From the NCBI RefSeq assembly GCF_011683915.1, contig NZ_JAAQPH010000002.1:310001-374000 (forward strand): a stretch of DNA of 64,000 bases, written 5' to 3'. This document shows, in pieces, positions 4,622-58,039 of the stretch. The notes beneath the pieces were generated by a model. The model did no database searches and was not told where the DNA came from. It saw only the letters and a program-made list of their open reading frames with translations. The first letter of the stretch is position 1. Every line of letters starts with the position of its first letter. The position numbers and the translations under genes are program-made. This stretch comes from Pelagibius litoralis. GTDB lineage: Bacteria > Pseudomonadota > Alphaproteobacteria > Kiloniellales > Kiloniellaceae.

Positions 4622-4630
4622 GCCCCGGCC

Positions 4631-5113: not shown

Positions 5114-5161
5114 CTGCCGTTTCCTATTGCAGCTGTGCCTTGCCTGGCACTTACGGAAAAG

Positions 5162-5197: not shown

Positions 5198-5211
5198 TTT
5201 CGTTCAGGGTC

Positions 5212-43391: not shown

Positions 43392-44900
43392 TCAGCCCGC
43401 TACGATCTTATTGACTTTGTCGGCAATGGAATCCATCGCCGCCTTCGGATTGTCGTATTCGCCGGCAAAGAAACGGCCAAGTTCAACAGGGATAGTGTCG
43501 TTGGAGAGCTCCGCCCATTCCGGCAGATCCGGCTCGGAGCCCATGTGGTTGTCGATGGTGTCGCGCACCACGTTCAGGTGGCGGGTGGTGCCCGGGATAC
43601 CCGGCTTGGCGTTGGCTTTCACGCGGGCGTCATCGTAGACGCTGGTGCGCGTCGGGCCGGTGCCGCCGCCCAGGGTGGTAATGAAGACCTGGGTGTCGGC
43701 CGAGGTGGCCCACTGGGCGAAAAGCCAGGCGGCATCCTGGCTCTTGGAGTACTTCGAAACCGCCAGCGACGAGCCGCCCTGGTGGCCGACGCCGGGGATT
43801 TCGCCGAAGCCGGTTTCGCCCACGGTGCGAAGTGCCTTGGGTGCCGGCGGCACCGCCGCTTCCATCAGCCCCGATACCCGCGATGACTCCGGATTGTCCC
43901 AGGAGGGGAAGAATTCGCCCCAACTCAGCACCTGGCCGGCGATGCCCTGACCGACCGACTGGCCCTGGCCGTCCCAGGTCCAGGAGGTCACGCCCGGGGG
44001 CATGTTTTCCTTCAGTTTAACCCAGTATTCCATGGCAGCGAGGCCGGCATCGTCGTTCCCGCTGAACTTGCTGTCCGGCCCGAAGACCGAACCGCCGTGC
44101 CCCCAGAGCCACGCCGTCCAATCGCACTCCAGGCTATAGTGCCCGGATTTCATCTGGCCGGTGGTGCCGTAGATGTCCGGACCCTTGGCCTTCTGGATCG
44201 CCTGGGCATTGGCCAGGAACTCATCCATCGTCGTCGCGACCTTCAGGCCCAATTCGTCGTAGACGTCCTTGCGGTACATATAAATGAAGATCGGGATGTC
44301 GTAAGGCACGCCGACCATGGTGTCCTCGTACATCGAGATGCCGTCCACCAGGGGCTTCAGGAAGTCGTCGAAGTTGTAGTTCGGCATCGCTAGTGCGCTG
44401 CTTGCGGCATACTTTTCGCGCGGGTCGATGACATCGCCGGAGAAGCTCGCCATCCAGCTCTGGTCGAGGTAGTAGAGATCGTAGGTGCCGAGGCCCGAGG
44501 CCACATCGAGTGTCAGCTTCTGCAGAACCTGCTCCAGCGGCAGGACCTCGATCTCGACATTGATCCCCGTCGCTTCCTCGAAGAAGGGCTTCAGGTGCTG
44601 ATTGATCGCGTTCGACGGTGGGGTCGATTCGGTTGCGAGGCGGATGGTCTGCCCGGCGAAAGGCTTCGCAACGTCTTTCAGCCAAGCCATCATATCGGCA
44701 TCCGGAGAAATCTCGGCGGCGGCGGCGCTGTTGAAGAATCCTTGGCGGGCCCCGAAGGGCAGGGTGGCGGTGAGGCCGAGCGCCCCGGCACCGAGCCCCA
44801 GCTTACCTGCGGCCTGCAGGAAGTTACGTCGGGACAGTTCGCCCCGGACATAGCGGTCCGTGACGGAGGCAAGGAACAACTTTCTATCTGACTCTCTCAT
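43392..44900 (-). CDS. Extracellular solute-binding protein of a CUT1 sugar/polyol ABC transporter
   Basis: A 502-residue binding protein of family 1. Its N-terminus has a twin-arginine motif SRRNFLQ (residues about 23-29) before a hydrophobic segment ending SAAAAE, so Tat export of the folded protein is probable. Mature features INQHLKPFFEEATGINVEIEVLP and YDIPIFIYMYRKDVYDELG are typical of the family. GGGAGGAAATGCG precedes the ATG. It follows the two permease genes and is itself followed by a strong terminator. Length is larger than maltose-type proteins and closer to polyol and glycerol-type ones. Confidence 0.92.
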   Translation of the reverse strand: MRESDRKLFLASVTDRYVRGELSRRNFLQAAGKLGLGAGALGLTATLPFGARQGFFNSAAAAEISPDADMMAWLKDVAKPFAGQTIRLATESTPPSNAINQHLKPFFEEATGINVEIEVLPLEQVLQKLTLDVASGLGTYDLYYLDQSWMASFSGDVIDPREKYAASSALAMPNYNFDDFLKPLVDGISMYEDTMVGVPYDIPIFIYMYRKDVYDELGLKVATTMDEFLANAQAIQKAKGPDIYGTTGQMKSGHYSLECDWTAWLWGHGGSVFGPDSKFSGNDDAGLAAMEYWVKLKENMPPGVTSWTWDGQGQSVGQGIAGQVLSWGEFFPSWDNPESSRVSGLMEAAVPPAPKALRTVGETGFGEIPGVGHQGGSSLAVSKYSKSQDAAWLFAQWATSADTQVFITTLGGGTGPTRTSVYDDARVKANAKPGIPGTTRHLNVVRDTIDNHMGSEPDLPEWAELSNDTIPVELGRFFAGEYDNPKAAMDSIADKVNKIVAG

Positions 44901-44978
44901 CGCATTTCCTCCCGTTTTATAGGCCCAGGCGGGCCGCTTTCAGGTCAGCAGACAACCGCGCTGTACCCAGGTGTTTAC

Positions 44979-45854
44979 TCACTGTTTCACTGATCCAAGG
45001 GTCAGCCCGCGCACCAAATTCTTTTGCACGAGCAGGATGAACACAAAGGCCGGCAACATGGCCGCGGTGCCGAGGGCGGCCATGTTGCCCCAGGCGGTTC
45101 CGGTCGAGGTAACGAAGGTCGAAGAGACGACCGGCACGGTCTTCAAGCTGGTCTGGGTCAAGGTCAGAGCGAAGAGAAACTCCGTCCAGGAAAAGATGAA
45201 GCACAACACGGCCGTCGCGGCGATCCCGCCCAGGGCCATTGGCAGCACCAGCTTGCGGAAGATCAGAAAGCGCGACGCGCCGTCGATCAGGGCGGCTTCG
45301 TCGATCTCTTTGGGGATGTCGTCGAAGAAACTTTTCAGCAGCAGCACCGCCAGCGGCATGTTCATCAATGCGTGAACGAGGACGATGCCGGTATAAGTGT
45401 CGAGCAGGCCGAAATCCTTGTAGATGAAGAACATCGGAATGGCGACGGCGACCGGCGGCATCATGCGGGTGGAGAGGATCCAGAACACGAAATGATGCTG
45501 GCCGCGAAAGCGCATGCGCGACAGCGCATAGGCCGCCAGGGTGGCGACCAGAACCGCCACTGCCGTTGAGAAGACCGCAATGATGATCGAGTCCATCAGC
45601 CGTGGCGCCATATAGAAGTCGCCGCCGCCGGGCAGCACGGCGATACCCTTCTCGAAGCCCAGCGATATGCCGAAAACTTCCTCATAGGACTTCGCGGAAG
45701 TTTCGAAAGAGAAAATTTTCGGGGGGATCGCAAAGATGTCTCGTCCGAGCTTGATGGAGACCGTGATCCAGTAGTAGATCGGAAAGGCAAACAGCATCAC
45801 CACTGCCCAGGCGACAAGGGCGCGTAGAATTCTCTGGGCCGGTGTGAGCACCAT
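44979..45854 (-). CDS. ABC transporter permease, CUT1 type (MalG-like)
   Basis: A 291-residue permease with six transmembrane helices. The MalG-type EAA loop IPKEIDEAALIDGASRFLIFRKLVLPMA, read in two parts around EAALIDGAS, contacts the ATPase. PIYYWITVSIKLGRDIF near the N-terminus is also typical. It lies three bases after the partner permease and is the second gene of the operon. Confidence 0.93.
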   Translation of the reverse strand: MVLTPAQRILRALVAWAVVMLFAFPIYYWITVSIKLGRDIFAIPPKIFSFETSAKSYEEVFGISLGFEKGIAVLPGGGDFYMAPRLMDSIIIAVFSTAVAVLVATLAAYALSRMRFRGQHHFVFWILSTRMMPPVAVAIPMFFIYKDFGLLDTYTGIVLVHALMNMPLAVLLLKSFFDDIPKEIDEAALIDGASRFLIFRKLVLPMALGGIAATAVLCFIFSWTEFLFALTLTQTSLKTVPVVSSTFVTSTGTAWGNMAALGTAAMLPAFVFILLVQKNLVRGLTLGSVKQ

Positions 45855-45857
45855 GAC

Positions 45858-46766
45858 CTACCACCTGACCTTGAAGATTTTCACGAAAAGGTTCGCCGCG
45901 ATCAGGATCACAAACAGCGCGAAGAGGCTGAGGGTGGCGCCGTAGCCCCACTTGATGAAGCTGAAGGTTTGCTGCCAGGCGTAGAGACTGAGTGTGTAGG
46001 TCGCGGTGCCCGGCCCGCCGGAGGTCATGACGAAGACATAGTCGAACATGCGGAACAGGTCGATGCCGCGGATCAGCACGGCAATGGCGATGACTTTGCT
46101 CATCATCGGCAGGGTGATGCGCCGGAAGATCTGCCAGGCGCTGGCACCGTCGATCATGGCCGATTCAAAGGGATCGCGGGGCAGGGAACGCAGGCCGGCA
46201 ATGAAGATCAGCACCATGAAGGGCGTCCACTGCCAGACGTCGGCCAGAATCACCCCCCAGATCGCCAGCGACGAGGTCGCCAGGATCGGCGTCGCCGGGC
46301 TCAGCACGCCGAGGGACTGAAGTGTCCAACTGATCAGGCCGAACTGCGAGTCTTGCATCAGGAGGAACATCATCCCGGTGACCGCGGGTGGAATGACAAG
46401 GGTCAGGGTCATGACGCCGCGCAGGAAACCGAAGCCCCGGTCGTCGGAATCGATCAGCAGGGCGATGGCCATGCCGAGCACCAGCTGGATGGTCAGGCAA
46501 ACGCCGGTGTAGAACAGCGTGACGTAGAAAGCGCTCCACATGCGCGGATCGGCAAAGAGTTTCTGCCAGTTTTCGAAACCGACGGGCACCAGGGCCCGTT
46601 TGCGCGGTGCGAATTCGTGAAACGACAGAAAGATATTGTAGAAGAAGGGGTAGAGGGCGAAGACCACCAGGATGACGATCAGCGGCAGCAGCCATGGCAA
46701 GGGATGGTCGGAAACCATGAAGCGGGGGCCTTTGAGGGCGCGCGTCACCATCCGGCGATCATCCAT
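45858..46766 (-). CDS. ABC transporter permease, CUT1 type (MalF-like)
   Basis: A 302-residue permease with six transmembrane helices, starting WLLPLIVILVVFALYPFFYNIFLSF. The EAA loop contains ESAMIDGASAWQIFRRITLPM, and FVMTSGGPGTATYTL is the conserved MalF segment near the end. It is the promoter-proximal gene of the leftward nine-gene operon, divergent from the SorC regulator. A binding-protein gene usually comes first; here the permeases do. Confidence 0.92.
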   Translation of the reverse strand: MDDRRMVTRALKGPRFMVSDHPLPWLLPLIVILVVFALYPFFYNIFLSFHEFAPRKRALVPVGFENWQKLFADPRMWSAFYVTLFYTGVCLTIQLVLGMAIALLIDSDDRGFGFLRGVMTLTLVIPPAVTGMMFLLMQDSQFGLISWTLQSLGVLSPATPILATSSLAIWGVILADVWQWTPFMVLIFIAGLRSLPRDPFESAMIDGASAWQIFRRITLPMMSKVIAIAVLIRGIDLFRMFDYVFVMTSGGPGTATYTLSLYAWQQTFSFIKWGYGATLSLFALFVILIAANLFVKIFKVRW

Positions 46767-46988
46767 TGAAATCGCTTCATCGAGAATGCAGGCCGATCAG
46801 ATAGCCGTCGCCCTGAGAACACCACGCACCTCCCCAACAGCAGGCATTAATGAAATGCGCGCAGGATTACCCTGTCGCCAGCCTGTTCGTTCTTATTACG
46901 GTTAACGTCGCATAACATTTTTTTCCGTGCAATATCATTTGTTCATGTTAATGCTCATTGCCGGATATTCAAGAGAAGGCATGACCCT
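46767..46988. promoter_or_regulatory. Divergent promoter region between sugar operon and SorC regulator
   Basis: This 222-base spacer contains an A+T-rich block at about 46898-46965, with TATTACGG, CATAACATTTTTTT and ATATCATTTGTTCATG. It is the most A+T-rich stretch of the neighbourhood and the likely site of both promoters and of the SorC operator. The repeated TTCATG/CTCATT elements at 46942-46964 are a weak operator candidate. I cannot define a full palindrome. Confidence 0.45.
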
Positions 46989-47975
46989 ATGGCCCGGGCG
47001 ACACCGGACATTCTGAAGCTCGGCGACGAGGCCCAGCGCGAAGGCTGGCCCGAGCAGTTGGCCGTGCGCATCTGCTGGCACTACTACATGCTGGGCCGCA
47101 CCCAGCAGGAGATCGCCGAGGCGCTGGGTATCAACCGGGTCCGGGTAAACCGCCTGCTGGCCGAAGCCAGGCGGCGCGGCATCGTGCGGGTCACCATCCA
47201 TTCCAAGCTGACCGAGAACGTCGCCCTCGAACAACGCCTCGCAGAGACCTACGGGCTCGATCTGGTTGAGGTGGTGATCGGCGATGTCGCCGACGAGGCC
47301 CAGCTTGCCGAGGTTCTGGGGCGGGCGGCGGCGGGATCGGTCGCACCGCTCTATGAAGACGGCATGACCGTGGGGATTGCCTGGGGGATTACCCTGAAGG
47401 CCTTTGCGCAGGCGACAGAGGAGAAACCGCTGCACGATGCCGCGGTGGTTTCCATGCTCGGATCGCTGACCCGGCGTTCTTCCGTCGATGCTTACGAGGC
47501 AACGACCGATCTGGCCGCCCGCCTTCATGCCGAGTGCTACTATCTGCCCGGCCCCATCGTCTGCGACAGCGAGGAAAGCCGTAACACGATCCTGCAGCAG
47601 CCGATGATGCGGGAGGTCTTTTTGAAGACACGCTCGGCGGATCTGGCCCTGGCGAGTGTCGGCGGGCTGGACTCCAGCACCATCCGGCTCATGGGCTTCG
47701 TGAACGAAGCGGAGTTCGACGAGGTTTCCAAGGCCGGGGCCATCGGCAACTTCCTGGGCTACTACCTGGATGAGAAGGCGGAGATCCTCGACCATCCCAT
47801 CAATCGCCGGGTGCTCGGTTTTCCGCCCAGCGATTTCATCAAGATCCCCCGCCGAATCATGATTTCAGGTGGCCCCACCAAGGTGCCGGTGCTGCGCGCC
47901 TTGATCGAGCGCGGCTACTTCACAGACCTGGTCACCGACGCCGAGACTGCAAAGGCGCTGTTGGAGAGCGCGTAG
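46989..47975 (+). CDS. SorC/DeoR-family sugar-binding transcriptional regulator
   Basis: A 328-residue regulator. The N-terminal HTH (residues about 22-58) is YYMLGRTQQEIAEALGINRV and RVNRLLAEARRRGIV. The C-terminal sugar-phosphate-binding domain shows TVGIAWGITLKAFA, LASVGGLDSSTIRLMGF and KVPVLRALIERGYF. SorC proteins sense a phosphorylated intermediate and control the adjacent operon. It is divergent from the polyol ABC/kinase operon, which it most likely regulates. AGAAGG lies 8-13 bases before the ATG. Confidence 0.92.
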   Translation: MARATPDILKLGDEAQREGWPEQLAVRICWHYYMLGRTQQEIAEALGINRVRVNRLLAEARRRGIVRVTIHSKLTENVALEQRLAETYGLDLVEVVIGDVADEAQLAEVLGRAAAGSVAPLYEDGMTVGIAWGITLKAFAQATEEKPLHDAAVVSMLGSLTRRSSVDAYEATTDLAARLHAECYYLPGPIVCDSEESRNTILQQPMMREVFLKTRSADLALASVGGLDSSTIRLMGFVNEAEFDEVSKAGAIGNFLGYYLDEKAEILDHPINRRVLGFPPSDFIKIPRRIMISGGPTKVPVLRALIERGYFTDLVTDAETAKALLESA

Positions 47976-47994
47976 CGTTTCTGGTTCGGTGCGA

Positions 47995-48633
47995 TCAACT
48001 GTCGTAAAACAGCTCTTCGGCCAGGGTCCAGTTGCCGTCGGCCTCCCGGCAGGCAATCGCCCGTGTCGTTTCCTCGCTATCGACGGCAACTTTCACCGCA
48101 AGGTACTCCCGGCACCAATGATTCGATTTGCTGCGGTAGGTTCGCACCGGCGTCACCTCGCCATAGGTGCCGCTGTCCGGGTTTCGCCAGGCCAGTTTAT
48201 TGCCGGAAGCGGTTTCCTCAAGCGCCCGTGCCACGGCGTCGGACAGCAGGCGCTGGTCCTCCGCCTGCCGCGCCGCCAGGGATTCGAGCGTGCTGTGTAC
48301 CCGGTATTCTCCGGCCAGGTATCCCGCCACGCCGGCAACCACGGCCATCGCCAGCGCCGCCGCCAGGGCAGGGGACCAGCGCTTGGCCCTGGGTGTCGGG
48401 CGGCGGGCGGCAAAGCCACGGTCGATCGTATCGATCAGATGTTGCGGCGGATCTTCGTTCACCGGGCCCTGCATGGCCGAGCGCAACAAAGCGGCGGCAT
48501 CTCGCAGGGACTTCACTTGCGCCTGCGCCGCCATATCGCTTGCCAGGCGCTGCTCCACGTCGCGGGCGGCAGCCGGGTCCAACTCTCCATCGACATAGGC
48601 TTGAAGACTATCGTCGATTTCCTTTCTGCTCAT
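47995..48633 (-). CDS. Anti-sigma factor with C-terminal 17-kDa-surface-antigen-like domain (pair 2)
   Basis: A 212-residue single-pass membrane protein. The cytoplasmic part (DDSLQAYVDGELDPAAARDV, residues 7-26) has the anti-sigma start. A transmembrane helix spans about residues 87-108. The outer part ends in a domain (residues 144-204) with LAWRNPDSGTYGEVTP, SNHWCREY (C174) and AIACREADGNW (C195), the pattern of the rickettsial 17-kDa surface antigen / RT0821 domain. The lipoprotein encoded at 50403 carries the same domain, including the helix before it. The ATG overlaps the sigma stop (ATGA), and GGAGA precedes it. The fusion suggests the domain is the sensor. Confidence 0.88.
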   Translation of the reverse strand: MSRKEIDDSLQAYVDGELDPAAARDVEQRLASDMAAQAQVKSLRDAAALLRSAMQGPVNEDPPQHLIDTIDRGFAARRPTPRAKRWSPALAAALAMAVVAGVAGYLAGEYRVHSTLESLAARQAEDQRLLSDAVARALEETASGNKLAWRNPDSGTYGEVTPVRTYRSKSNHWCREYLAVKVAVDSEETTRAIACREADGNWTLAEELFYDS

Positions 48634-49181
48634 CTGCCGTTCTCCATCTTGCCATTCTCTATCCCGCCATCGGGGCTGCCGTCGGTGTTTGCCTCGGCGC
48701 CTTCTTCTTCCAGGTAACCGCGCATGGCCGAGCGGGCGCGGCCCAGGCGGCTGGTCACCGTGCCGACCGGCAGGCCGGTGATCTGCGATACCTCGCGGTA
48801 ACTGCGCCCCTCCACGCATATGAGCAGCAGTACGATGCGTTGCTCCTCCGGCAGGCGATCAATGAAGCGGCGCACGGCGGTGAGAGCGAAGCGGTCTTCC
48901 TGTTGCTTCTCGCCGTCCAGCGACCATTGGCTCTCAGAGCCGATCACCGCGAGATGGCGGGCGCGCGTCTTGCCGTCACGCAAGGCGTTGAAATGCAGGT
49001 TCTGTGCGATGCGGTACATCCAACTGTCCAACCGGGTTCCTTTTTCCCACTTTTCGAGGTTGGCTATGGCTCTCTCACAGGTTGCCTGAACCAGATCGTC
49101 GCCATCCGGCACCGAACCGGCCAACCCATAGGCGAAGCGGCGGAGCTGCGGCAGCAGCGCTACGATCTCGTCACGCAGCAT
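48630..49181 (-). CDS. ECF-family RNA polymerase sigma factor (pair 2)
   Basis: A 183-residue ECF sigma factor. Region 2 includes LRRFAYGLAGSVPDGDDLVQ and LDSWMYRIAQNLHFNALRD. Region 4 includes LPEEQRIVLLLICVEGRSYR followed by GLPVGTVTSRLGRARSAM. An open frame continues upstream into the antisense of the Hint gene, but the ATG at 49181 matches the family start. A short hydrophilic tail ends in GGIENGKMENGR. It is divergent from the Hint gene array at 49399, the obvious candidate target. I could not recognise a confident shared ECF promoter motif upstream of the two Hint genes. Confidence 0.9.
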   Translation of the reverse strand: MLRDEIVALLPQLRRFAYGLAGSVPDGDDLVQATCERAIANLEKWEKGTRLDSWMYRIAQNLHFNALRDGKTRARHLAVIGSESQWSLDGEKQQEDRFALTAVRRFIDRLPEEQRIVLLLICVEGRSYREVSQITGLPVGTVTSRLGRARSAMRGYLEEEGAEANTDGSPDGGIENGKMENGR

Positions 49182-49398
49182 CTCGTCCAAAAGATCCCCT
49201 CCAAGCCTCTGACGGGCATGTCGGTCGGGTTTCCAGTGCCTTACCGCTTCAACAACACACCAGACGGCAAAAGCTTCCCGAAACGGCTTCACTTTGCAGA
49301 AATATGAGAAAATGTAGCACGCTGGGGATGGATTCCGCTGCTGGCGTGTTATCGGAACAAGGACAAACTTCCAGGATGGCTTTGATGAAGGCAGGAAC

Positions 49399-50403
49399 AT
49401 GAAACAAAGCAACCGCGCCTTCACGCGCCTGATGGCGTCGACCAGTCTGATTGCCCTCTCGCTGACGATAGCACCCATTGCCCTAAGCCCTGATATCGGC
49501 GGCGCGAGCCTGGGCTTCGCCGACTCCGGCAGCAGCTGCTTTGTCGCCGGTACCCGGGTTTTGATGGCTGACGGCTCGGAAAAGGCGATTGAGTGTATCG
49601 AAGTGGGAGAGGCAATCCGCAACGGCCGCGGCGGCATCAGCCGCGTTCGCGCGATTGAGAGGCCTGCTCTCGGTACGCGGTTGCTTTTTGCTTTCAATGG
49701 CTCCCGGCCTTTTGTGACGGCAGAACATCCCTTTCTCACTATGATGGGTTGGAAAGCCGTCGATCCGGCAGCAACGGCCCGTGAGAATCCATCACTGCCG
49801 GTTTTGACGCTGCGCCAAGGCGACCTGCTGACCCGGGCACATCCGGCGCGGTCCGGAAGTGTTTCCGGGAACCTTGCCCTGGCGGATGACATTGAGTACG
49901 CGCTGGAGCCGTTACGGCGCCTGACGGCATCTGCCGCGCCGCCTGAAACCGTCGTCTATAATCTCATCCTGGAAGGTGATCGCAGCTTCATTGCCGACGG
50001 CTATGTGGTTCACAACAAGGGCGGTGAAGGGGGTGAGTCCGGCGGAGATTCCGGCGGCGAATCAGGAGGCGGCGATTCAGGGGGCGGCGGAGAGTCCGGA
50101 GGAGGAAATTCCGGCAGCGGCGGCGGCGGCGAATCTGGCGAGAGCGACAGTTCGGGCGAAGGCGGCGAATCTGGCGAGAGCGACAGCTCGGGCGAAGGCG
50201 GCGAATCTGGCGAGAGCGGCAGTTCGGACGAAGGCGGCGAATCTGGCGAGAGCGGCAGTTCGGGTGAAGGCGGTGAATCGGGCGATAGCGGTGAGTCCGG
50301 AGAAAGCGGCGAAGCGGGCGAATTCTCTGGTGATGCGGGCGAAGCTGGCGAAGATCTCAACGACGATGAAGAGGCGGATTTAATCCGCCGGGGTTGGCAG
50401 TGA
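49399..50403 (+). CDS. Secreted Hint-domain protein with Gly/Glu/Ser repeat tail, paralogue 1
   Basis: A 334-residue exported protein. A signal-peptide-like N-terminus (residues 1-41) is followed by a Hint (hedgehog/intein) domain at residues 47-206. The nucleophile is in SCFVAGTRVLMADGS (C47), the block B motif is FVTAEHPFLT (T107, H110), and the domain ends in GYVVHN (H205, N206). The next residue is Lys, not Cys, Ser or Thr, so splicing is not expected, but Asn-dependent cleavage would free the tail. That tail (207-334) is KGGEGGESGG, then four 12-residue repeats, and ends DLIRRGWQ. AGGAA precedes the ATG. Its stop overlaps the lipoprotein start (TGATG). Host target unknown. Confidence 0.88.
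   Translation: MKQSNRAFTRLMASTSLIALSLTIAPIALSPDIGGASLGFADSGSSCFVAGTRVLMADGSEKAIECIEVGEAIRNGRGGISRVRAIERPALGTRLLFAFNGSRPFVTAEHPFLTMMGWKAVDPAATARENPSLPVLTLRQGDLLTRAHPARSGSVSGNLALADDIEYALEPLRRLTASAAPPETVVYNLILEGDRSFIADGYVVHNKGGEGGESGGDSGGESGGGDSGGGGESGGGNSGSGGGGESGESDSSGEGGESGESDSSGEGGESGESGSSDEGGESGESGSSGEGGESGDSGESGESGEAGEFSGDAGEAGEDLNDDEEADLIRRGWQ
50125..50268 (+). repeat. 36-bp in-frame tandem repeat, four copies
   Basis: Four consecutive 36-bp units start at 50125, 50161, 50197 and 50233 and differ by a few bases each; a degenerate copy follows. They encode GGESGES(D/G)SS(G/D)E in the tail of the first Hint protein. Such arrays change length by slippage, so the copy number may vary among strains. 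Confidence 0.92.
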
Positions 50404-50777
50404 TGTCGGCGCTTGGTTTGAAGGGCCCGAAGACGCTGACGTTACTGGGAGTGGTATTCTTCCTGAGCGCCTGCGCGCAGTCGCAACCGGCGGGCGACCC
50501 GTCCTATGCCGCGCTGGCCCCCCGCGCCGAGGTGCTGGCGCGCAATACGGTGCAGACCGCCCTGGAGACCGCGCAGAGCCGATCGAGCCTGGGGTGGAGC
50601 TTTGTGGAGGACGGCAGCAGTGGCGCAATAACCCCCTTGCGCAGTTACAAGAGCACCACGGGCTATTACTGCCGCGAGTATGTCGAGGTGATTGAGACGG
50701 CTGCGAACGGTAGCAATTCCAGGCAAAGGACGGCATGCCGCGATGTCGACGGCGTCTGGAAACCGATACGGTCTTGA
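50403..50777 (+). CDS. Lipoprotein with 17-kDa-surface-antigen-like domain
   Basis: A 124-residue lipoprotein. The lipobox LSAC (C24) follows a hydrophobic stretch, so it should be anchored to a membrane by lipid. Residues 41-119 contain LARNTVQTALETAQ, SSLGWSFVEDG, ITPLRSYKSTTGYYCREY (C90) and TACRDVDGVW (C112). The same helix plus domain forms the outer part of the anti-sigma factor at 47995. The start at 50403 overlaps the Hint stop, so translation is coupled. It may compete with or signal to the anti-sigma factor; that is inference. It is followed four bases later by the oxygenase gene. Confidence 0.87.
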   Translation: MSALGLKGPKTLTLLGVVFFLSACAQSQPAGDPSYAALAPRAEVLARNTVQTALETAQSRSSLGWSFVEDGSSGAITPLRSYKSTTGYYCREYVEVIETAANGSNSRQRTACRDVDGVWKPIRS

Positions 50778-50780
50778 GTG

Positions 50781-51452
50781 ATGCTTGCGACTATTGACGG
50801 GGTGCTCGATTGGCCCGCCTTGAAACAGCTGCGCGCCGCCTTGGCCGACGGTGCGTTTGTCGACGGACAGACCACGGCAGGCTTTCGGGCAAAAAGAGTT
50901 AAACACAACGAGCAGTTAAGCCCCAAGGCTGCGGATCGTAAGTCTCTGGATGATATGATTTTGAATGCGCTGCGTGGCCATGACGACTTCCAGCGACTGG
51001 CTTTCCCCAAGGCCATCCAAAGGCCGCTGTTCAGCCGTTACGGCGTCGGGATGAACTATGGCCTCCACGTCGACGACGCTTTGATGGGTAAGGAAAGACG
51101 GATCAGGAGCGACCTCTCGGTCACGGTCTTTTTGAATAACCCGGACGACTACGATGGTGGCGAGCTGGAGATGATGAGCGCCTTCGGGCCCCAGGAGGTC
51201 AAGCTGCCCGCCGGATCGGCCGTTCTCTATCCCTCCAGCACTTTGCACAGGGTCAAACCGGTAGCGGCTGGCGAGCGGCTGGCCGCGGTAACCTGGGTTC
51301 AGAGCTTCATTGCCGATCCGGCAAGAAGGGAGATTCTGATCGATGTTGATCGCATGCGACGGCGACTGACCTCGGTGGATCCTGACGGTGAGGAAACCGA
51401 CCTCGCATTCAAGACCTACGCCAACCTTCTACGCATGTGGTCCGACGTTTAA
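50781..51452 (+). CDS. PKHD-type Fe(II)/2-oxoglutarate-dependent hydroxylase (PiuC/YbiX family)
   Basis: A 223-residue oxygenase of the PKHD-type hydroxylase family. The iron ligands are H96 and D98 in MNYGLHVDDALMG and H156 in SSTLHRVKPV, and the 2-oxoglutarate Arg lies in AGERLAAVTWVQS. The family name comes from similarity to prolyl hydroxylases; PiuC members often lie beside TonB siderophore receptors, but none is here. Instead it stands between two Hint genes and right after the lipoprotein, which raises the chance that it modifies one of these products or responds to iron. GTG at 50778 is an alternative start; the ATG fits the family. Confidence 0.9.
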   Translation: MLATIDGVLDWPALKQLRAALADGAFVDGQTTAGFRAKRVKHNEQLSPKAADRKSLDDMILNALRGHDDFQRLAFPKAIQRPLFSRYGVGMNYGLHVDDALMGKERRIRSDLSVTVFLNNPDDYDGGELEMMSAFGPQEVKLPAGSAVLYPSSTLHRVKPVAAGERLAAVTWVQSFIADPARREILIDVDRMRRRLTSVDPDGEETDLAFKTYANLLRMWSDV

Positions 51453-51541
51453 CTGCTGGGCCGAAGATTACTGTTCTTGGGGGATGATTTCCGTTTCCCG
51501 CGGGTTGTCTCAGTAGATCAACCCCAAGCGAGGAAAGCCCC
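51453..51541 (+). promoter_or_regulatory. Leader of the second Hint gene
   Basis: The 89 bases between the oxygenase stop and the second Hint start are long enough for a separate promoter. The sequence GCGAGGAAAG at 51527-51536 is the ribosome-binding site. I see no terminator and no convincing sigma-type box shared with the region before the first Hint gene. Confidence 0.4.
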
Positions 51542-52528
51542 ATGCCGAGCCATTCAACGTCGAAGAATTTGCGCCTGCTTGCAGGCACCAGCCTCTTGGC
51601 ACTTTCCTTTGCCGCGAGCCCCCTGACGGTATCAATCGATTGGCAGGACGGCCCATTGACGCTGCAGAGCGCAGAGGCGAAGAGCTGCTTCACCGCAGAG
51701 ACCCGCGTACTCATGGCGGACGGAAGCGAGAAGCCGATCTGCGAAATCGTGCCGGGTGATTCGGTTTTGGGTGGCAATGGGCGCATGAACCGGGTCGTCG
51801 CGGTAGAGCGTCCCGGCCTGGGTGAGCGCAAGCTGTTCGCCTTCAATGGTGGCGAAGCCTTCGTGACGGCGGAACATCCTTTTCTGACACCGGCTGGTTG
51901 GAAAGCCATCGATCCGATTGCGACCGCCGATGAAAACCCGACTCTGAAGGTTGCCCGGTTGGCAGTGGGCGACCTGCTCATGGCAGCCTTACCGGCGGGT
52001 GCGGAAAGCCAAGGCAATCTGGCTCTGGTAGCGGAAGTGGTGACGCGGCCTTTACCGTTGGAGCGGATCGAAAGCGTCTCGGCCGATCCCGCCATGCTGG
52101 TCTACAACCTTCTGCTGGATGGTGACCATAGCTACATCGCCAATGGCCTGATCGTGCACAACAAGGGCGGTGAAGGCGGCGAGTCCGGCGGCGGAAATAG
52201 TGGTGGCGGCGAACATGGCGGCGGTGAGAGCGGTGAACACGGCGGTGGTGAGAGCGGTGAACACGGCGGTGGTGAGAGCGGTGAACACGGCGGCGGTGAG
52301 AGCGGCGAACACGGCGGCGGTGAGAGCGGCGAACATGGCGGCGGTGAGAGCGGTGAGCATGGTGAAAGCGGCGAGTCTGCCGAAACCGATGACGATGACG
52401 ATCATCGTGGGCGCGGCCGAGGTCGGGGCCGTGGCGATGACCAGTATTTTGCCGATGGCAATGCTCAGGGCGATGGTGAGTTGTCCTCTGATCAGGAGGC
52501 GGCTGCCATCAACGAAGGCTGGCAGTAA
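51542..52528 (+). CDS. Secreted Hint-domain protein with His-containing repeat tail, paralogue 2
   Basis: A 328-residue paralogue of the protein at 49399. An N-terminal export signal (residues 8-27 hydrophobic) precedes the Hint domain at 49-207, with nucleophile C49 in KSCFTAETRVLMADGS, block B FVTAEHPFLT (T109, H112) and terminal LIVHN (H206, N207). The residues after Asn, KGGEGGESGG, are identical to those of paralogue 1. The tail then has six GGGESGEH repeats, an acidic stretch DDDDDH, an RG-rich patch and ends AAAINEGWQ. The shared C-terminal pattern is [DE]L-x2-D-x-E-A-x2-I-x2-GWQ. The His repeats could bind metal. Function unknown. Confidence 0.88.
   Translation: MPSHSTSKNLRLLAGTSLLALSFAASPLTVSIDWQDGPLTLQSAEAKSCFTAETRVLMADGSEKPICEIVPGDSVLGGNGRMNRVVAVERPGLGERKLFAFNGGEAFVTAEHPFLTPAGWKAIDPIATADENPTLKVARLAVGDLLMAALPAGAESQGNLALVAEVVTRPLPLERIESVSADPAMLVYNLLLDGDHSYIANGLIVHNKGGEGGESGGGNSGGGEHGGGESGEHGGGESGEHGGGESGEHGGGESGEHGGGESGEHGGGESGEHGESGESAETDDDDDHRGRGRGRGRGDDQYFADGNAQGDGELSSDQEAAAINEGWQ
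52217..52360 (+). repeat. 24-bp in-frame tandem repeat, six copies
   Basis: Six consecutive 24-bp units starting at 52217 encode GGGESGEH in the tail of the second Hint protein. The units are nearly identical, differing mainly at third codon positions. There are no spacers, so it is a protein-coding tandem repeat and not a CRISPR. Confidence 0.93.
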
Positions 52529-52574
52529 GCATTTGTGAATATCCTCCGGCCGCTTCCTCTTCGCCAACAGGCGT

Positions 52575-53771
52575 TCAGTCGTCGGGTCGGCGATGGAGAC
52601 GTGCGGTCGGGTTCGGGGGCGATGACGTGGGCAAGGTCCAAGCAAGCCCAAGGCGGGCGTAGTGGGCGGCCCTCAACGGACTCTTGTCCCGCAGTTGTTC
52701 CCTGATGCGCCAAACGAGCCCGCGCGCCAGCCCGCGCGCGATCTGCCGTCCGGTTTCCGACTGCCGGCTGAGCGCCCGGATGCGGTGGGAAATACTTTTA
52801 TCTTGAAGTATCTCGTCGCATCCGTATTTCGACAGCATGGCACGCTTGAGTAGGTTCTTTTCTGTGTTGGAGAGTTTCGCTCCCCCAATGCTGGCCGCGG
52901 CCTCAAAGTCGTTGAGTGCTGGTTCCCACAGTTTCTTCCGCGCCATGATCGCGGCGCGCTGCAGGGTTGCCCGTCTCGTGGCTTCGGGGCCATCGATCCG
53001 TCGGGAGGGCAGAAACTCCGACAGGTCGAGTTCTGCGTAGCAGCGTTGCAGGATTTCTTTGTCGGCTTTTATCCATCTGGCAACGCGCTGATCCGAACTG
53101 AAGCGCCCCGAAGCGGTGCCGCGGTACCCGTCATGCTGGCGCTGAAGAAAGACGATGGTTTCGGTGGCAACCGACCTGGCAACCCGGGCCAGCCGGATCA
53201 GCATGTCGTAATCCTGGGAACGGGGCAGTCCTTCGTTGAAAGGGCCGACCCGGTCGTAAAGCGATCTCCGCACCAGCATGCCGGGTTGATGAACAAAGAA
53301 ATCCTCAAGCGTGGCGGTTAGAAAATCATCCGGCGCAGACTGCCGCCAATAGCCGGTATCGAAGATGTGTCGGCAGCCGGTTTCCGGATCAACCGAGAAG
53401 CGGTTGTAACGGCCATAGGCAAAGCCGGCTTTCCCATCCGTTTTGATTAGGTCCGTCAGCACGGCGAGGGCATCCGGAAGGACGAGGTCGTCATCATCGA
53501 CAATCCAGATCAATGGATGTCTGGCCCTTGCCAGGGCCACGTTCAAGCCCGCGGACTTTCCGCGGTTTGGCATCCTGACGACCTCGACGGCATTCCCGAA
53601 TCGGCGGAGTGTTTCTTCCGTTCCGTCATTGGACCCGTCGTCGACAACGATGATCTGGGCCGGTTGCAACGACTGTGCAAGGATTGCGTTCAAGCACTCC
53701 GTAAGGAAAACGGCTCTATTGAACGTCGGAACGACTGCTGTTGTGGAAAGATCGCCGCTAAATCGCGCCAT
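52575..53771 (-). CDS. Glycosyltransferase family 2
   Basis: A 398-residue cytosolic or membrane-associated glycosyltransferase. The GT2 fold start AVVPTFNRAVFLTECLNAIL, the nucleotide-sugar Asp in IIVVDDGSNDGTEE, and the metal motif DDDD in LIWIVDDDDLVLPDAL are clear; EGLPRSQDYDMLIRLA holds the acceptor-side acid. The C-terminal roughly 150 residues are helical and basic, with no transmembrane segment obvious. It is convergent with the second Hint gene (46-base gap) and divergent from the other glycosyltransferases. Sugar and acceptor are unknown; surface polysaccharide or protein glycosylation are the options. Confidence 0.88.
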   Translation of the reverse strand: MARFSGDLSTTAVVPTFNRAVFLTECLNAILAQSLQPAQIIVVDDGSNDGTEETLRRFGNAVEVVRMPNRGKSAGLNVALARARHPLIWIVDDDDLVLPDALAVLTDLIKTDGKAGFAYGRYNRFSVDPETGCRHIFDTGYWRQSAPDDFLTATLEDFFVHQPGMLVRRSLYDRVGPFNEGLPRSQDYDMLIRLARVARSVATETIVFLQRQHDGYRGTASGRFSSDQRVARWIKADKEILQRCYAELDLSEFLPSRRIDGPEATRRATLQRAAIMARKKLWEPALNDFEAAASIGGAKLSNTEKNLLKRAMLSKYGCDEILQDKSISHRIRALSRQSETGRQIARGLARGLVWRIREQLRDKSPLRAAHYARLGLAWTLPTSSPPNPTARLHRRPDD

Positions 53772-54076
53772 GCCTCATTCAGTACCCGCTGGCCAAGGGA
53801 CTTATACCGGGGCGCAGGATCGCCATATTACCTCACCGATGATTTCAATGTGATGGGCACTCGATTTCAATTCGGGGGTAGCAACCGAAGGTGCCACACC
53901 AACGTATGACTATGCCAAACCGCAGCTACGAAAAAGGCCGTATATATTTGATTATCAACGAAAATATGCTTTTCTGAATCATCTGAAGCGGTCTGATCAA
54001 TACGCCGCGTCCCCATCGGTTTATTCATATAGTCGGACTACCGGTTGTGATCTCTATGTGTCGCGGCGAATGAACA
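53772..54076. other. Gene-free divergent region
   Basis: These 305 bases separate the leftward GT2 gene from the rightward GT4 gene. The part at about 53930-54030 is more A+T-rich than its surroundings (GTATATATTTGATTATC, GAAAATATGCTTTTCTG) and is the likely promoter area. I see no tRNA, terminator or operator in it, and short frames across it lack ribosome-binding sites. Confidence 0.5.
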
Positions 54077-55438
54077 GTGGTGTCGGGCCTGCCGGATGAT
54101 ATTTTGCAGAGCGCCGGTAGCGCTGAACTGTGGGTAGCCGAACAGTGGAAGAGCACGCGCTTGCAAGTGGCATTTTTCACCAATGCATTTCCCATGATGT
54201 CGGAGCCCTTCATTGCGCTGTCGGCAGCGTCGCTTATCGACCGAGGTCACGACGTCGACGTCTACGGTCTGTCAAACGTAACGCCGACAGGTTTTTCTTC
54301 CGCACCCTCCGTTCAGGCGAAGCTGCGGGATCGCTTCCGAAACGCGCAGTGGCCATTGCGCTTCAGCGAACGCATGAAGCAGTTGCCGACAGCGGCGTCT
54401 GACTTGGCAAGGCGGCGGGGGATCGCCTCGCTGCCGATCTGGAAGCCGGGTACCTACCGCCGCAACTGGTCGGACCTCACGGCAGTCTATCAGGCCCGGG
54501 TGATCGCCGAGCCTGGTGAGTACGACATTCTCCATTGTCAGTTCGCGACACTGGCTGAATACGTCGTCAAACACCGGAGAGCGGGAATCCTGAAGGGCCG
54601 GCTTGTGGTCCACTTTCGCGGCTATGACATATCCGAAGTTGTCCAGCGTTTCGGACCAGACGTCTATGACTACCTCTGGAGCGCGGCGGACCGCTTCATC
54701 GCGAACTGCGATCATTTTAAGGAGCGCGCGATCGCCCTGGGCTGTCCCGCCGACAAGATTGATGTCGTTGGTTCAGGCATCGATTTACAGGGCTTTGCCT
54801 ATCAGGAGCCGAGAAGCACCGATGGCGGCCCTGTGCAGTGCCTCACGGTTGGCCGCCTGACTCCCCGAAAAGGTATCCACATCGCGATAGAGGCGCTTCG
54901 CCGTCTGGTCGCGGAAGGCTGCGATATCAATCTCGCTATCGTCGGTGATGGCGAGCAGCGCCGGGAGCTGGAAGAACAGGCAAGCGCCGGCGGACTCGGT
55001 GAGCGCGTGAAATTCCTCGGATCGCGCCCGCACAGTGAGATTCAGACTTTGCTCGAGGCCAGCCATATCTTCATCGCAGCCTCCCTGACCAGCAGTGCAG
55101 GCGGGGTCGACGCGCCGGTGAACACGATCAAGGAAGCCATGGCCGTCGGCGTACCGACCTGCGCAACCGATCATGGCGGTATACCGGAGTTGGTAGAGGA
55201 GGGGAGCACCGGGGTTCTTGCGCGGGAAAACGACCCGGCGAGCCTGGCGGCGGCCCTCCGGCGCTTGCTGGCCCGCGAAGCAAATTGGCCGACCCTATCC
55301 AGGGCCGGTCGTTTACGTGTGGAGCGGGATTACGGAAATGACATCGTTACCGACAAACTCCTGAAGGTCTACGAGATGGCGCTTGCCGATCGGGCAAAGC
55401 CCGAGCGGATGATTTCACCAGTCCGGGCAGCCCAGTAA
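54077..55438 (+). CDS. Glycosyltransferase family 4
   Basis: A glycosyltransferase of the GT-B fold, GT4 family. The N-terminal LQVAFFTNAFPMMSEPFI, the central VVGSGIDLQGF and TVGRLTPRKGIHIAIEAL, and the donor-site AASLTSSAGGVDAPVNTIKE with GIPELVEEG are typical. The start is uncertain. GTG codons at 54077 and 54080 open the frame but lack a good ribosome-binding site, while TTG at 54161 has GGAAGAG upstream and begins right at the first beta-strand (about 425 residues). It heads a three-gene set with a GT2 and a flippase, so the product is probably a surface polysaccharide or a lipid-linked oligosaccharide. Confidence 0.87.
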   Translation: MVSGLPDDILQSAGSAELWVAEQWKSTRLQVAFFTNAFPMMSEPFIALSAASLIDRGHDVDVYGLSNVTPTGFSSAPSVQAKLRDRFRNAQWPLRFSERMKQLPTAASDLARRRGIASLPIWKPGTYRRNWSDLTAVYQARVIAEPGEYDILHCQFATLAEYVVKHRRAGILKGRLVVHFRGYDISEVVQRFGPDVYDYLWSAADRFIANCDHFKERAIALGCPADKIDVVGSGIDLQGFAYQEPRSTDGGPVQCLTVGRLTPRKGIHIAIEALRRLVAEGCDINLAIVGDGEQRRELEEQASAGGLGERVKFLGSRPHSEIQTLLEASHIFIAASLTSSAGGVDAPVNTIKEAMAVGVPTCATDHGGIPELVEEGSTGVLARENDPASLAAALRRLLAREANWPTLSRAGRLRVERDYGNDIVTDKLLKVYEMALADRAKPERMISPVRAAQ

Positions 55439-55469
55439 TTCTACTTCAGCAATCACGAGGTTGCCTGAG

Positions 55470-56531
55470 ATGCCAGACAACATTGAGTTGACAGACAACG
55501 CCGTGAAGCCGGTTATTGAAGCGACCATTGTCGTGACACCGCGTGAGCGCTTTGGGGTTGCGGAAGAATCGCTCTTGAGCATCGTTGGGGACACGGAGGA
55601 GCCTTATCAGCTCATCTACCTCGACGGCGCCAGTCCGGCAAAGACCGCGGCCAAGGTCGCCGCTATCTGCGCAGAACGAGGGTTCCGCTATCTGCGTTAC
55701 GAAGACTATCTGACGCCGAACCAGGCCAGAAACATCGGCCAGCGCCTCGTAGAGACAGACTACGTGGTTTTCGTCGATAACGACGTGATCGTATCCAAAG
55801 GTTGGTTGGCCGCCCTGATCGCCTGTGCGCGGGAGACGGATGCCGACGTCGTTGCGCCTCTTACCTGCCAGCGCCTGCCCCTTCACAGCGAGATCCATCA
55901 GGCCGGCGGCGAGTTCGCAGAAGACCTGAAGGCTTTTTTGAAGAGCAAACCGGAGGAGCGGCGGATTACGGATGTGCATCTGCGTCAGGGCGAGCAGGTG
56001 AGGGATGTCGCGCTTCAAAGGGGGGAAACCCAGTGCTGCGAATTTCACTGCGCGCTGGTTCGCAAGGATGCTTTTGCACGCTTTGGCGCGCTCGACGAGA
56101 ATTTGCTCGCCACCAAAGAGCACATCGATTTCTGCATGACGGTCTGGACCAAGGGCGGCCGCGTTATGTTCGAGCCGACCGCCGTCGTGACCTATCTGTT
56201 CCCAAGCCGGGCGCGGCCCTTGACGAAGGAGGATTGGCCCTACTTTGCGCTCCGCTGGTCGCCTTTATGGCAGCAAAAGAGCCTCGATCATTTTCAGCGC
56301 AAATGGGCATTGTTTGACGATCCGTATTTTGAGAAGCGCAAGGGCATGCTGCACTTCCGCCATTCGGAGGGTATCGCCAGGCCGGTTCTGCGCCGGGTTC
56401 CCCTTCTGCGCAGCAGCTACACGGCCCAGAAGCTGGGTGTCGCTCTGCTGACCCGGCTTATCGATCTCTGGAGCGCGTGGCTGGCGCGCCGGCAACCGAA
56501 CACTTTGCCGGCTACGGCAGAGCGCGGCTGA
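55470..56531 (+). CDS. Glycosyltransferase family 2-like protein
   Basis: A 353-residue GT2-like protein. It begins the Rossmann-like fold at EATIVVTPRERFGVAEESLLS, has a DxD-like pair in YVVFVDNDVIVSKGW, and LATKEHIDFCMTVWTKGG near the acceptor site. The C-terminal part is basic with a possible amphipathic helix. ATG at 55470 is preceded by GAGG at nine bases; TTG at 55461 is less likely. It lies 31 bases after the GT4 gene and 14 before the flippase gene, clearly one operon. Confidence 0.87.
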   Translation: MPDNIELTDNAVKPVIEATIVVTPRERFGVAEESLLSIVGDTEEPYQLIYLDGASPAKTAAKVAAICAERGFRYLRYEDYLTPNQARNIGQRLVETDYVVFVDNDVIVSKGWLAALIACARETDADVVAPLTCQRLPLHSEIHQAGGEFAEDLKAFLKSKPEERRITDVHLRQGEQVRDVALQRGETQCCEFHCALVRKDAFARFGALDENLLATKEHIDFCMTVWTKGGRVMFEPTAVVTYLFPSRARPLTKEDWPYFALRWSPLWQQKSLDHFQRKWALFDDPYFEKRKGMLHFRHSEGIARPVLRRVPLLRSSYTAQKLGVALLTRLIDLWSAWLARRQPNTLPATAERG

Positions 56532-56545
56532 AAGCGGCGGGATCT

Positions 56546-58039
56546 ATGGGACGGGCCCGAAAGCTGATCGGCCAAACGATCTGGGCATCGATGGGTCAGT
56601 TCGTCCAGTTGGTGGTCGGATTGATCGGCTTGATCATTCTCGTCAGGATCCTGGGGCCGGAGACCTATGGCCTCTTTGCGCTTGGCTTGCTGTTCATAAA
56701 CCTTGCGGAAGTTTTCGTCGGCGGGCACGCGGCCGACGGCGTGGTGCAGAAGGAAGACCTCAGCGAGGCGGAGAAAACAGCCACCTATGCCGCGCTCATG
56801 GCCACCGGCGGGCTCTGCGCCTCCATCATCATTGCGTCCGCCGGGCTCGTCGCGGCGGTGTTCGACGCGCCGTCCTTGATCGCCCTTCTGCCTGTCATGG
56901 CGGCGCTGCCTGTTCTGACAGCGGCTGTCAGCGTTCCAAACCAGCTCCTGGTTCGTGATTTACGGTTTGCCGCTTTGGCCAAGGCCTCGGCAACGGCGAG
57001 TCTGCTGGCGGTTTGTGTCGGGATTTTTCTGGCCGTTGCCGGTTATGGGATCTGGAGCCTGCTCTGGATGGAGTTGGCGCGCCGCGCGGCGATGCTGGTC
57101 TTGGTCCACATCGCGACAAAGTGGCTGCCCGGTGCGGCCTTTTCGCGGCGCGACCTTTGGCCGATGCTGCGGTTTGCGGTCCGGCGTATCGAGAACAAGG
57201 GATTGCATTACATCTCGGTGGAGGCGCTGCCGCGCGGTTTCATCGGTTATGTTCTCGGTGCCGAGGCTCTGGGTTACTTTGCCGTGGCCCGCCGTTTTCT
57301 GGGCCAGTTGAACGGGGTTCTCAGCGGGCCGGTCTCGGCCGTCAGCTTCCCGGCAGCCGCAAGGCTGCAGTCCAGCCCGGCGCTCCTGGAACGCCTGATC
57401 GTATCGGTGATCCGCGTTTCCACCTGGACATTCTGGCCCGCCTTGCTGGGGGCCATCGTCATTGCACCGGTTTTGTTTCCGATCATGCTCGGCGAGAACT
57501 GGGGCGCTTCGATCGCGGTGATGCAGATTCTTGCGCTCGCCGCGCTCCGTTCACCCATCGTCGGGTTCTCGACCGCCGTTCTAACCGCCTTCGGCGCCAT
57601 GGGCGACATCAGCCGGGTCCACATCGCCGCGATCGTTATCGGTGCCATCGGCTGCATCATCGGTATTCAGTTCGGCTTGATCGGGATTGCTGCGGCCTTG
57701 GCCTTTCGGCAATGGCTGCTTTGGCCGGTCATCGCATTTTTCGTGAAGAAGCGGACCGGCTTCGCGCCGCTGCGACAGGTCACCATCATGCTGCAGGCCG
57801 CCGTACCGGCGCTTGTGATGGCGGCGGCAGTGCTCTCTCTGCGCCTGGCCCTTGATGGCCTGGTGGCACCGATGATCGAACTCCTGGTTCTCATCGCCAG
57901 CGGCGTCTTCGTCTACCTGCTCGCCTGGTTGGCCTGGAACGGCGCCGCGCGGGCCAGCGCCCTTGAAGCCGTGACGGGATTGCTCCGTGGTGACCGCGAC
58001 GCCGCCACACGCTCCCTGAAGGCCGTCATCGCGCCCTGA
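56546..58039 (+). CDS. Oligosaccharide flippase (Wzx-like, MATE/MOP superfamily)
   Basis: A 497-residue inner-membrane protein with 12-14 hydrophobic segments. The start MGRARKLIGQTIWASMGQFVQLVVG, read in parts, and ILVRILGPETYGLFALGLLFI are the polysaccharide-synthesis (WzxC-type) signature, and LRDLRFAALAKASATASLLA and GYVLGAEALGYFAVARRFLG are further matches. It would flip a lipid-linked sugar unit across the inner membrane. The ATG at 56546 is preferred over the frame opening at 56477, which overlaps the GT2 gene. It is last in the GT4-GT2-flippase operon. No Wzy polymerase is seen nearby. Confidence 0.9.
   Translation: MGRARKLIGQTIWASMGQFVQLVVGLIGLIILVRILGPETYGLFALGLLFINLAEVFVGGHAADGVVQKEDLSEAEKTATYAALMATGGLCASIIIASAGLVAAVFDAPSLIALLPVMAALPVLTAAVSVPNQLLVRDLRFAALAKASATASLLAVCVGIFLAVAGYGIWSLLWMELARRAAMLVLVHIATKWLPGAAFSRRDLWPMLRFAVRRIENKGLHYISVEALPRGFIGYVLGAEALGYFAVARRFLGQLNGVLSGPVSAVSFPAAARLQSSPALLERLIVSVIRVSTWTFWPALLGAIVIAPVLFPIMLGENWGASIAVMQILALAALRSPIVGFSTAVLTAFGAMGDISRVHIAAIVIGAIGCIIGIQFGLIGIAAALAFRQWLLWPVIAFFVKKRTGFAPLRQVTIMLQAAVPALVMAAAVLSLRLALDGLVAPMIELLVLIASGVFVYLLAWLAWNGAARASALEAVTGLLRGDRDAATRSLKAVIAP

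Follow-up and report, generated by a model that had tools for sequence, protein, structure and literature searches.

Several described systems come close to parts of the locus discussed here. RpoE6, an extracytoplasmic function (ECF) sigma factor of group ECF26, activates its own operon and a divergent serine protease gene, according to the excerpted text of PMC6180224. A-type bacterial intein-like (BIL) domains end in His-Asn with no obligatory nucleophile after it, and their C-terminal cleavage is described in excerpts of PMC7765530 and PMC5874633, while C-type BIL domains are associated with a PPS-1 domain (excerpt of PMC9185962). CciO, a PiuC-type oxygenase, supports iron homeostasis in Caulobacter together with the TonB receptor CciT (PMC12004947, in excerpt). 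We examined a 64,000-nucleotide stretch of the Pelagibius litoralis genome (the window; contig NZ_JAAQPH010000002.1, positions 310,001 to 374,000), in which positions 47995-52528 hold an ECF sigma/anti-sigma pair facing two proteins with intein-like Hint domains (Hint 1 and Hint 2), a lipoprotein and an oxygenase. We propose that this is a dedicated sigma/anti-sigma regulon for an exported low-complexity peptide, in which the Hint domain would be an optional pro-module, the lipoprotein shares the sensor domain of the anti-sigma factor, and the oxygenase would be an accessory; judged from sequence, we give this reading about even chances. With an acidic peptide that would be exported under ECF26-like control and an intein-like module that is optional, the locus is a genuine variant, apparently not described before.

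All six genes listed in the sequence-only reading of the window are open frames. For the sigma gene the frame stands, but a TTG with GGAGG upstream is a likelier start than the ATG assigned to it; beyond this TTG the frame continues open through the promoter. A gap of 89 bp separates Hint 2 from the oxygenase gene before it, and Hint 2 is preceded by a promoter motif of its own. The features are as follows.

47995..48633, minus strand: anti-sigma factor, with an N-terminal anti-sigma domain, one membrane helix and a periplasmic 17kDa_Anti_2 domain with two conserved Cys
48630..49190, minus strand: ECF sigma factor, start TTG 49190 likelier than ATG 49181
49251..49279, minus strand: promoter motif of the sigma/anti-sigma transcript, GGGAAG-N16-TGTTGTT, member of the motif training set
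49325..49353, plus strand: promoter motif of the Hint 1-lipoprotein-oxygenase transcript, GGGATG-N16-TGTTATC, member of the motif training set
49399..50403, plus strand: Hint 1 protein, with leader, Hint domain, acidic Gly-rich tail and C-terminal motif LNDDEEADLIRRGW
49537..50016, plus strand: Hint domain of Hint 1, catalytic Cys47 to His205-Asn206
50017..50400, plus strand: tail of Hint 1, first residue Lys207
50403..50777, plus strand: lipoprotein of the PF16998 family, its domain common with the anti-sigma factor
50778..51452, plus strand: oxygenase of the PiuC/YbiX family, a PKHD-type Fe(II)/2-oxoglutarate enzyme that has HxD...H...R
51481..51509, plus strand: Hint 2 promoter motif, GGGATG-N16-GGTTGTC, kept out of motif training
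51542..52528, plus strand: Hint 2 protein, with leader, Hint domain, Gly/Glu/His-rich tail and C-terminal motif LSSDQEAAAINEGW
51686..52162, plus strand: Hint domain of Hint 2, catalytic Cys49 to His206-Asn207
52163..52525, plus strand: tail of Hint 2, first residue Lys208, predicted to be disordered apart from a short helix at its C-terminal end (residues 316-324)

The sequence-only reading had named a neighbourhood not kept in related genomes as grounds against itself, and this objection falls away: the sigma gene adjoins 17 of 30 tallied loci with a signal-peptide-Hint-tail gene, in Alpha- and Gammaproteobacteria. Because the same gene order recurs in other genomes, the gene set is more than a chance assembly. 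The 30 loci are non-duplicate and were picked by reading. A scan of named genomes gave 51 loci, and of 98 relatives' genomes, our own counted, 15 matched the Hint 2 query at E<=0.001. An anti-sigma gene with a fused PF16998 domain is present at 15 of these loci and the lipoprotein gene at 21; all counts of this tally are lower bounds, nine of the 30 loci being incomplete in some way, for instance cut or broken on the side of the lipoprotein or the tail, and several running into contig ends. Among nine other genomes with a strong Hint 2 match, the sigma gene faces Hint-lipoprotein-oxygenase in eight. Sigma-bearing gammaproteobacterial loci include Marinobacterium, Zobellella and Motiliproteus, where the oxygenase is missing, and Aeromonas supplies 11 of the 30 loci, none with the sigma gene. 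At one sigma-bearing locus (L023 in our numbering) the anti-sigma gene was not found on the contig, and the frames of L052 and L069, interrupted within the repeat or Hint, were left uncorrected. At L041, L045, L046 and other Aeromonas loci, where the Hint-tail gene stands without sigma, tail repeats like DDNGVDAVDANGNKLRGDG resemble cation-binding loops. A scan of viral contigs with the Hint query gave 11 loci, mostly large proteins with the Hint deep inside or terminal; close relatives of our Hint sit within such proteins at L079-L089, and L081 has two tandem Hint domains.

The conserved neighbourhood, together with a promoter motif before sigma, Hint 1 and Hint 2, supports the earlier idea of a sigma/anti-sigma-controlled locus for exported repeat peptides. 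Other parts of that idea have to be narrowed: pairs of Hint genes were seen in no genomes but this one and two more of the genus Pelagibius; the oxygenase is found at 11 of the 30 loci; and the Hint domain is not essential, being absent from eight related loci. The earlier interpretation is partly supported, Hint and oxygenase being accessories of the gene set.

The promoter motif bears directly on the proposed regulon. A two-part motif, CGGGAAGA-N13-GGTGTTGTC, lies upstream of sigma and of the facing gene, and one common promoter motif precedes each of sigma, Hint 1 and Hint 2. The motif was trained on Hint loci, and its training sites fit by construction; the held-out Hint 2 site scored 18.4 in the window and 13.5 in the two genus mates, where the best of 760 shuffles reached 15.1 (p ~0.004 for 13.5). 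All eight Hint-less loci carry the motif in both directions (p<=0.008 each, 480 shuffles). Three of the window's four best matches are those of sigma, Hint 1 and Hint 2, and two further matches (6727 and 19809) were rejected as lying within long open frames. In the 6.03-Mb genome a strict pattern matched nine times, against two for a reversed-pattern control; three of the nine are at this locus, and the other six sit within long open frames, not all of which are necessarily genes. Against the motif, five held-out Hint genes behind an extra peptide gene (L021, L022, L024-L026) are without a significant promoter site of their own. The elements read GGGAAGA/GGGATGA and GTGTTRTC here and GGAATA and CGTT at the subtilase loci described below, to be compared with the ECF26 elements GGAATA (-35) and GT (-10).

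The regulators themselves are recognisable. The sigma factor matches Sigma70_r4_2 (58 bits) and Sigma70_r2 (47.7 bits) in Pfam, and the anti-sigma factor matches zf-HC2 at 21.5 bits, slightly below the cut-off of 22.2. This regulator half appears to belong near the described group ECF26, by kinship to one member: a sigma factor encoded at 78.9 kb on Sinorhizobium meliloti pSymA is 45% identical to ours over 150 residues and faces a poly-Asp subtilase. The record is unannotated at that point, and we take the gene to be rpoE6 by its arrangement; the activation by RpoE6 described in the excerpted PMC6180224 is then an experimental precedent for the proposed regulatory step. Elsewhere, related pairs of sigma and anti-sigma genes lie opposite a gene for a secreted protein that joins a poly-Asp or Asp/Gly stretch to a subtilase domain. 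Pfam matched Peptidase_S8 in each of the six such proteins submitted to it, one of them from a second locus of our own genome; two annotated plasmid loci likewise have a sigma pair facing a subtilase. The divergent serine protease gene seen beside RpoE6 is absent from the locus at 47995-52528, and is present at that second locus (G000:C38) and at the five other loci given to Pfam. In the sigma tree L153-L164 are labelled subtilase loci; the label rests on Pfam for six, on a reading by eye for L162 and on resemblance for L157-L159 and L164, while L161 has no readable facing gene. G000:C38 (L163, 432-3151) is a second sigma/anti-sigma pair of the genome, and its facing gene encodes a secreted poly-Asp subtilase protein. 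At L160, a 705-residue low-complexity secreted protein with no Pfam match (3477-5594) stands between the subtilase gene and sigma.

The Hint domains are divergent, with their catalytic residues in place. Matches to Hom_end_hint are weak (Hint 1 29.1 bits, Hint 2 34.9 bits, cut-off 32.1), the cut-off of TIGR01443 intein_Cterm is passed by Hint 2 alone, and a search of the whole genome with Pfam Hint_2 gave nothing at E<=0.001 because that model is too distant from this Hint group. The catalytic Cys, TxxH, His-Asn and the following Lys show no variation among the aligned relatives (13 of 13 and 20 of 20). AlphaFold2 models the Hint domain of Hint 2 with confidence (90 or above in most blocks of ten residues in 51-200) and gives a disordered tail with a short C-terminal helix at 316-324; the best solved match of the model in Foldseek is the BIL2 domain of Tetrahymena BUBL1 (PDB 6y75; E 2.8e-10, TM-score 0.77 on the target). 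Both the Hint fold, seen in this model and its structural match, and a C-terminal His-Asn with no obligatory Cys, Ser or Thr next to it are those of A-type BIL domains. A classical intein was rejected, needing Cys, Ser or Thr directly after the domain where Lys stands in 20 of 20, and so was a Hedgehog-type protein, which needs a C-terminal Hint behind a secreted signalling domain; here the Hint precedes the tail. Across 56 readable relatives, Lys follows the Hint His-Asn in 55 (four of them read by eye), many of these ending one or two residues later. At L044, L059, L063, L067, L073, L074, L076 and others, the Hint is terminal, ending at VHNK or at most two residues past it, behind unrelated secreted regions.

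Relatives without a Hint offer a natural comparison. The eight related loci (L114, L115, L147-L152) combine a sigma/anti-sigma pair with a facing gene for a secreted protein that bears the C-terminal motif; this protein has no Hint match, and the Hint query gave no match in the genomes of these loci. The lipoprotein gene adjoins in six of the eight, and the oxygenase gene is also found at L114, L115 and L150. In the sigma tree L114 groups with Hint-bearing L022 (97/93) and L021 (100/98), and the Hint label has to change five times on this tree, with well-supported branches forcing two of those changes. The L114 secreted protein keeps the tail end DLSSDEEAAAISKGWE, and its junction reads AQA-KGGEGG against AQA-KC[CF...Hint...VHN]-KGGDGG in L021. 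In the 16 Hint proteins read, a small-x-Ala site placed by eye lies 2-5 residues ahead of the catalytic Cys. With such a site just before the Hint Cys and Lys-Gly after the Asn, cleavage after Asn would give nearly the product that signal peptidase would give from the Hint-less protein. Since some relatives are without it, this suggests that the Hint is a self-removing insert and not the working part. At L021, L022, L024, L025 and L026, an extra short gene between sigma and Hint encodes a leader similar to the Hint protein's and a Gly-rich acidic stretch with no Hint; the leaders of these extra peptides and of the Hint proteins align at scores of 90-106, against shuffle maxima of 30-38 (four compared). 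A weak match to the leader also pointed to a third region, L116, which has none of the locus genes. At L147 (933-1622), L148 (7474-8082) and L149 (1794-2465), a stretch with an Arg-Arg motif stands in the Hint's place and by eye resembles twin-arginine-like leaders of neighbouring Gly-rich proteins.

The lipoprotein and the outer domain of the anti-sigma factor are one family, PF16998 (17kDa_Anti_2), with scores of 32.0 and 48.9 bits, respectively, both above the Pfam cut-off of 26.6. Alignments show two Cys and a CRE/ACR...W pattern kept in both protein families. The predicted model of the anti-sigma factor has an N-terminal helical domain, which aligns structurally with RslA (Z 6.6) and MucA (Z 6.2), then a long helix holding the membrane span, and an outer beta domain. 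This outer domain had no structural match above Z 6.5, and such scores perhaps reflect just a common arrangement; the lipoprotein profile matched nothing up to E=1 among solved structures.

The tail ends hint at what the PF16998 proteins may bind. LSxxEEAxxIxxGW or a close form ends 23 of 26 uncut, unbroken tail-type Hint genes, the three exceptions being Aeromonas loci without a lipoprotein gene. Of 66 genes for which the following 700 bases were at hand, a set that takes in remote Hint and subtilase genes, 25 have both the motif and a downstream lipoprotein gene, 6 the motif only, 2 the lipoprotein only and 33 neither (Fisher 1.9e-10, overstated, as relatives are non-independent). Three of the six motif-only genes are second Hint paralogues of lipoprotein-bearing loci, and the two lipoprotein-only genes are broken frames. 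Eight Hint-less genes in this count were recognised partly by the end motif itself; even so, the count is fairer than the presence of the motif in 30 of 31 tails examined, a circular figure, those tails having been selected by a similar pattern. Because the motif tracks with the lipoprotein gene, we suggest that the PF16998 protein may handle the tail end, in which case the anti-sigma factor would read the same ligand.

The oxygenase matches 2OG-FeII_Oxy_3 (58.2 bits), PKHD_C (23.2 bits) and NCBIfam NF003974 (256.6 bits, cut-off 143). All 14 locus oxygenases retain the HxD, distal His and Arg and are therefore probably active. No TonB-dependent receptor is among the genes of this locus, and the pre-export peptide as substrate is a guess.

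Taken together, these observations would fit the following sequence of events. The sigma factor would drive its own operon and the facing genes from the one promoter motif. The secreted protein would leave by the general secretion route, with signal peptidase cutting at the AxA-like site 2-5 residues before the Hint Cys. The Hint, where present, would then cleave after its terminal Asn, as its invariant catalytic residues would allow, releasing an acidic Gly-rich peptide that starts with Lys-Gly and ends in the conserved helix-like motif. In Hint-less relatives signal peptidase would suffice to make almost the same peptide, so that the Hint would be a removable pro-module and not the working part. 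The C-terminal motif is a likely handle for the PF16998 lipoprotein, the anti-sigma factor may read the state of peptide or lipoprotein outside the membrane with the same domain, and the accessory oxygenase might, speculatively, hydroxylate the peptide before export. The more specific claim, that Hint-bearing and Hint-less alleles give the same mature product, that the anti-sigma factor senses this product through the domain its lipoprotein uses to hold it, and that the oxygenase tailors the peptide, is put forward tentatively, at less than even chances.

Several observations weigh against this picture. Lys is conserved even where the protein ends at once, and is not explained solely as the first residue of a released peptide, so that its role as a mere product start is weakened by the relatives that end there; at Hint-less junctions it is the first residue in only 5 of 14 (sites placed by eye). 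The leader of L114 agrees at 78% and 76% with its extra Hint-less peptides and at 56% and 53% with Hint-protein leaders; L114 may therefore have arisen by recombination between neighbours rather than by clean loss, and the extra Hint-less peptides are without the C-terminal motif. That motif also occurs without an adjoining lipoprotein at L034, L151 and L152, while three Aeromonas Hint proteins have neither. Finally, by our own reading the lipobox Cys is not seen in at least 5 of 18 aligned "lipoproteins", and lipid anchoring is thus not general.

The presence or absence of the Hint at one position among close relatives, with at least two and at best five changes of label on the sigma tree, could also be read as a selfish or neutral intein-like insertion that excises or cleaves without benefit from a plain regulated secreted peptide. 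We consider this unlikely: domain lengths and Pfam give no homing endonuclease in the Hint domain, the C-terminal nucleophile of normal intein splicing is replaced by Lys, and the same Hint proteins are retained in distant classes with invariant catalytic residues. A different fate for the Hint would be to stay attached, its Cys thioester linking a partner to the short N-terminal stretch or to another amine as in Hedgehog- or BUBL-like ligation, with the tail only an anchor. The many remote relatives ending at VHNK or at most two residues on, where the Asn-Lys bond has no large product behind it, and the structural match to BIL2 of BUBL1 speak for such a reaction; with a mature N-terminal side of just 2-5 residues after the AxA site, and a tail end conserved with or without Hint, we think it quite improbable here.

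The remaining alternatives concern the peptide. Across the 31 tails examined the net charge runs from -3 to -83, and an acidic or His-rich tail might bind cations in the manner of bufferins, modified by an iron-linked PiuC-type oxygenase and controlled by a sigma factor that answers metal stress. Bufferin systems carry an MNIO (DUF692) enzyme in the operon, and none was found among the seven locus proteins scanned with Pfam. The role of CciO with CciT in Caulobacter iron homeostasis (excerpted PMC12004947) would agree with a metal function; the missing TonB receptor and the lack of the oxygenase at most loci do not, and overall we find this reading doubtful, though worth keeping in mind. Hint domains release toxins in other systems (PT-HINT), and the lipoprotein could then be an immunity protein to a C-terminal toxin. 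We regard this as highly improbable, the tails being low-complexity with a conserved rather than variable end, the Pfam scan of the locus proteins having found no toxin family, and the lipoprotein domain being common to the anti-sigma factor.

Around the locus, the window holds a sugar-type ABC transporter (43392-46766) and a polysaccharide cluster with glycosyltransferases and a flippase-like protein (52575-58039), neither of which was found next to relatives' loci. An Rfam scan of 46500..54500 gave no families, a sigma-70 promoter scan found 0 sites against 0.8 expected, and terminator-like sites (4 against 4.6 expected) were uninformative.

If the proposed regulon is real, bacterial intein-like domains would gain a physiological job in releasing an exported peptide at the right time, one that could be studied by comparing close relatives that naturally have or lack the domain. 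It would also be a simple case of an anti-sigma factor whose sensing domain copies a protein of its own regulon, and would give a testable context to the uncharacterised PF16998 family and to a PiuC-type oxygenase without a receptor. The sequence-only reading held that no system of this composition had been described; that holds in so far as the open-licence literature searched (subscription papers being outside our scope) has none combining an ECF sigma factor, an anti-sigma factor and a Hint domain, with no mention found there of 17kDa_Anti_2, PF16998 or Lpp0805 either and, among the papers listed by a broader search, none that has a Hint domain together with an anti-sigma factor, and has to be qualified for the regulator half near ECF26.

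Compared with known systems, the Hint domain resembles A-type BIL domains, as described in the excerpts of PMC7765530 and PMC5874633, in its N-terminal Cys, TxxH and C-terminal His-Asn with no obligatory nucleophile. Unlike those excerpted descriptions, the Hint here has an invariant Lys after His-Asn, lies directly behind a signal peptide in a dedicated regulated operon, and has known Hint-less relatives. The ubiquitin-like partner domains of Tetrahymena BUBL1 are absent from this locus. A C-type BIL of Bdellovibrio was reportedly described by Dori-Bachash in 2009, and relatives of our Hint ending VHNKH occur in metagenome-assembled genomes of Bdellovibrionaceae. The oxygenase is like PiuC, YbiX and CciO in family and active-site residues; unlike them, as far as the excerpted PMC12004947 describes, it has no TonB receptor partner and lies in the Hint/lipoprotein transcript. 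For an anti-sigma factor whose outer domain is itself the receptor, RsiV-SigV of Bacillus subtilis is a precedent (excerpt of PMC4183432), by analogy of role only, the ligand of RsiV being lysozyme. A close likeness in regulation is to RpoE6-EcfR6 of S. meliloti (excerpted text of PMC6180224), which shares the one-helix class of anti-sigma factor with a periplasmic domain (in our search a weak PF16998-type match, 21 bits) and the divergent secreted low-complexity protein; its promoter, with a GGAATA-like -35 and a GT-containing -10 element, may also be alike. There the facing gene is a poly-Asp subtilase, whereas here it is a Hint/Gly-rich peptide followed by the lipoprotein and the oxygenase.

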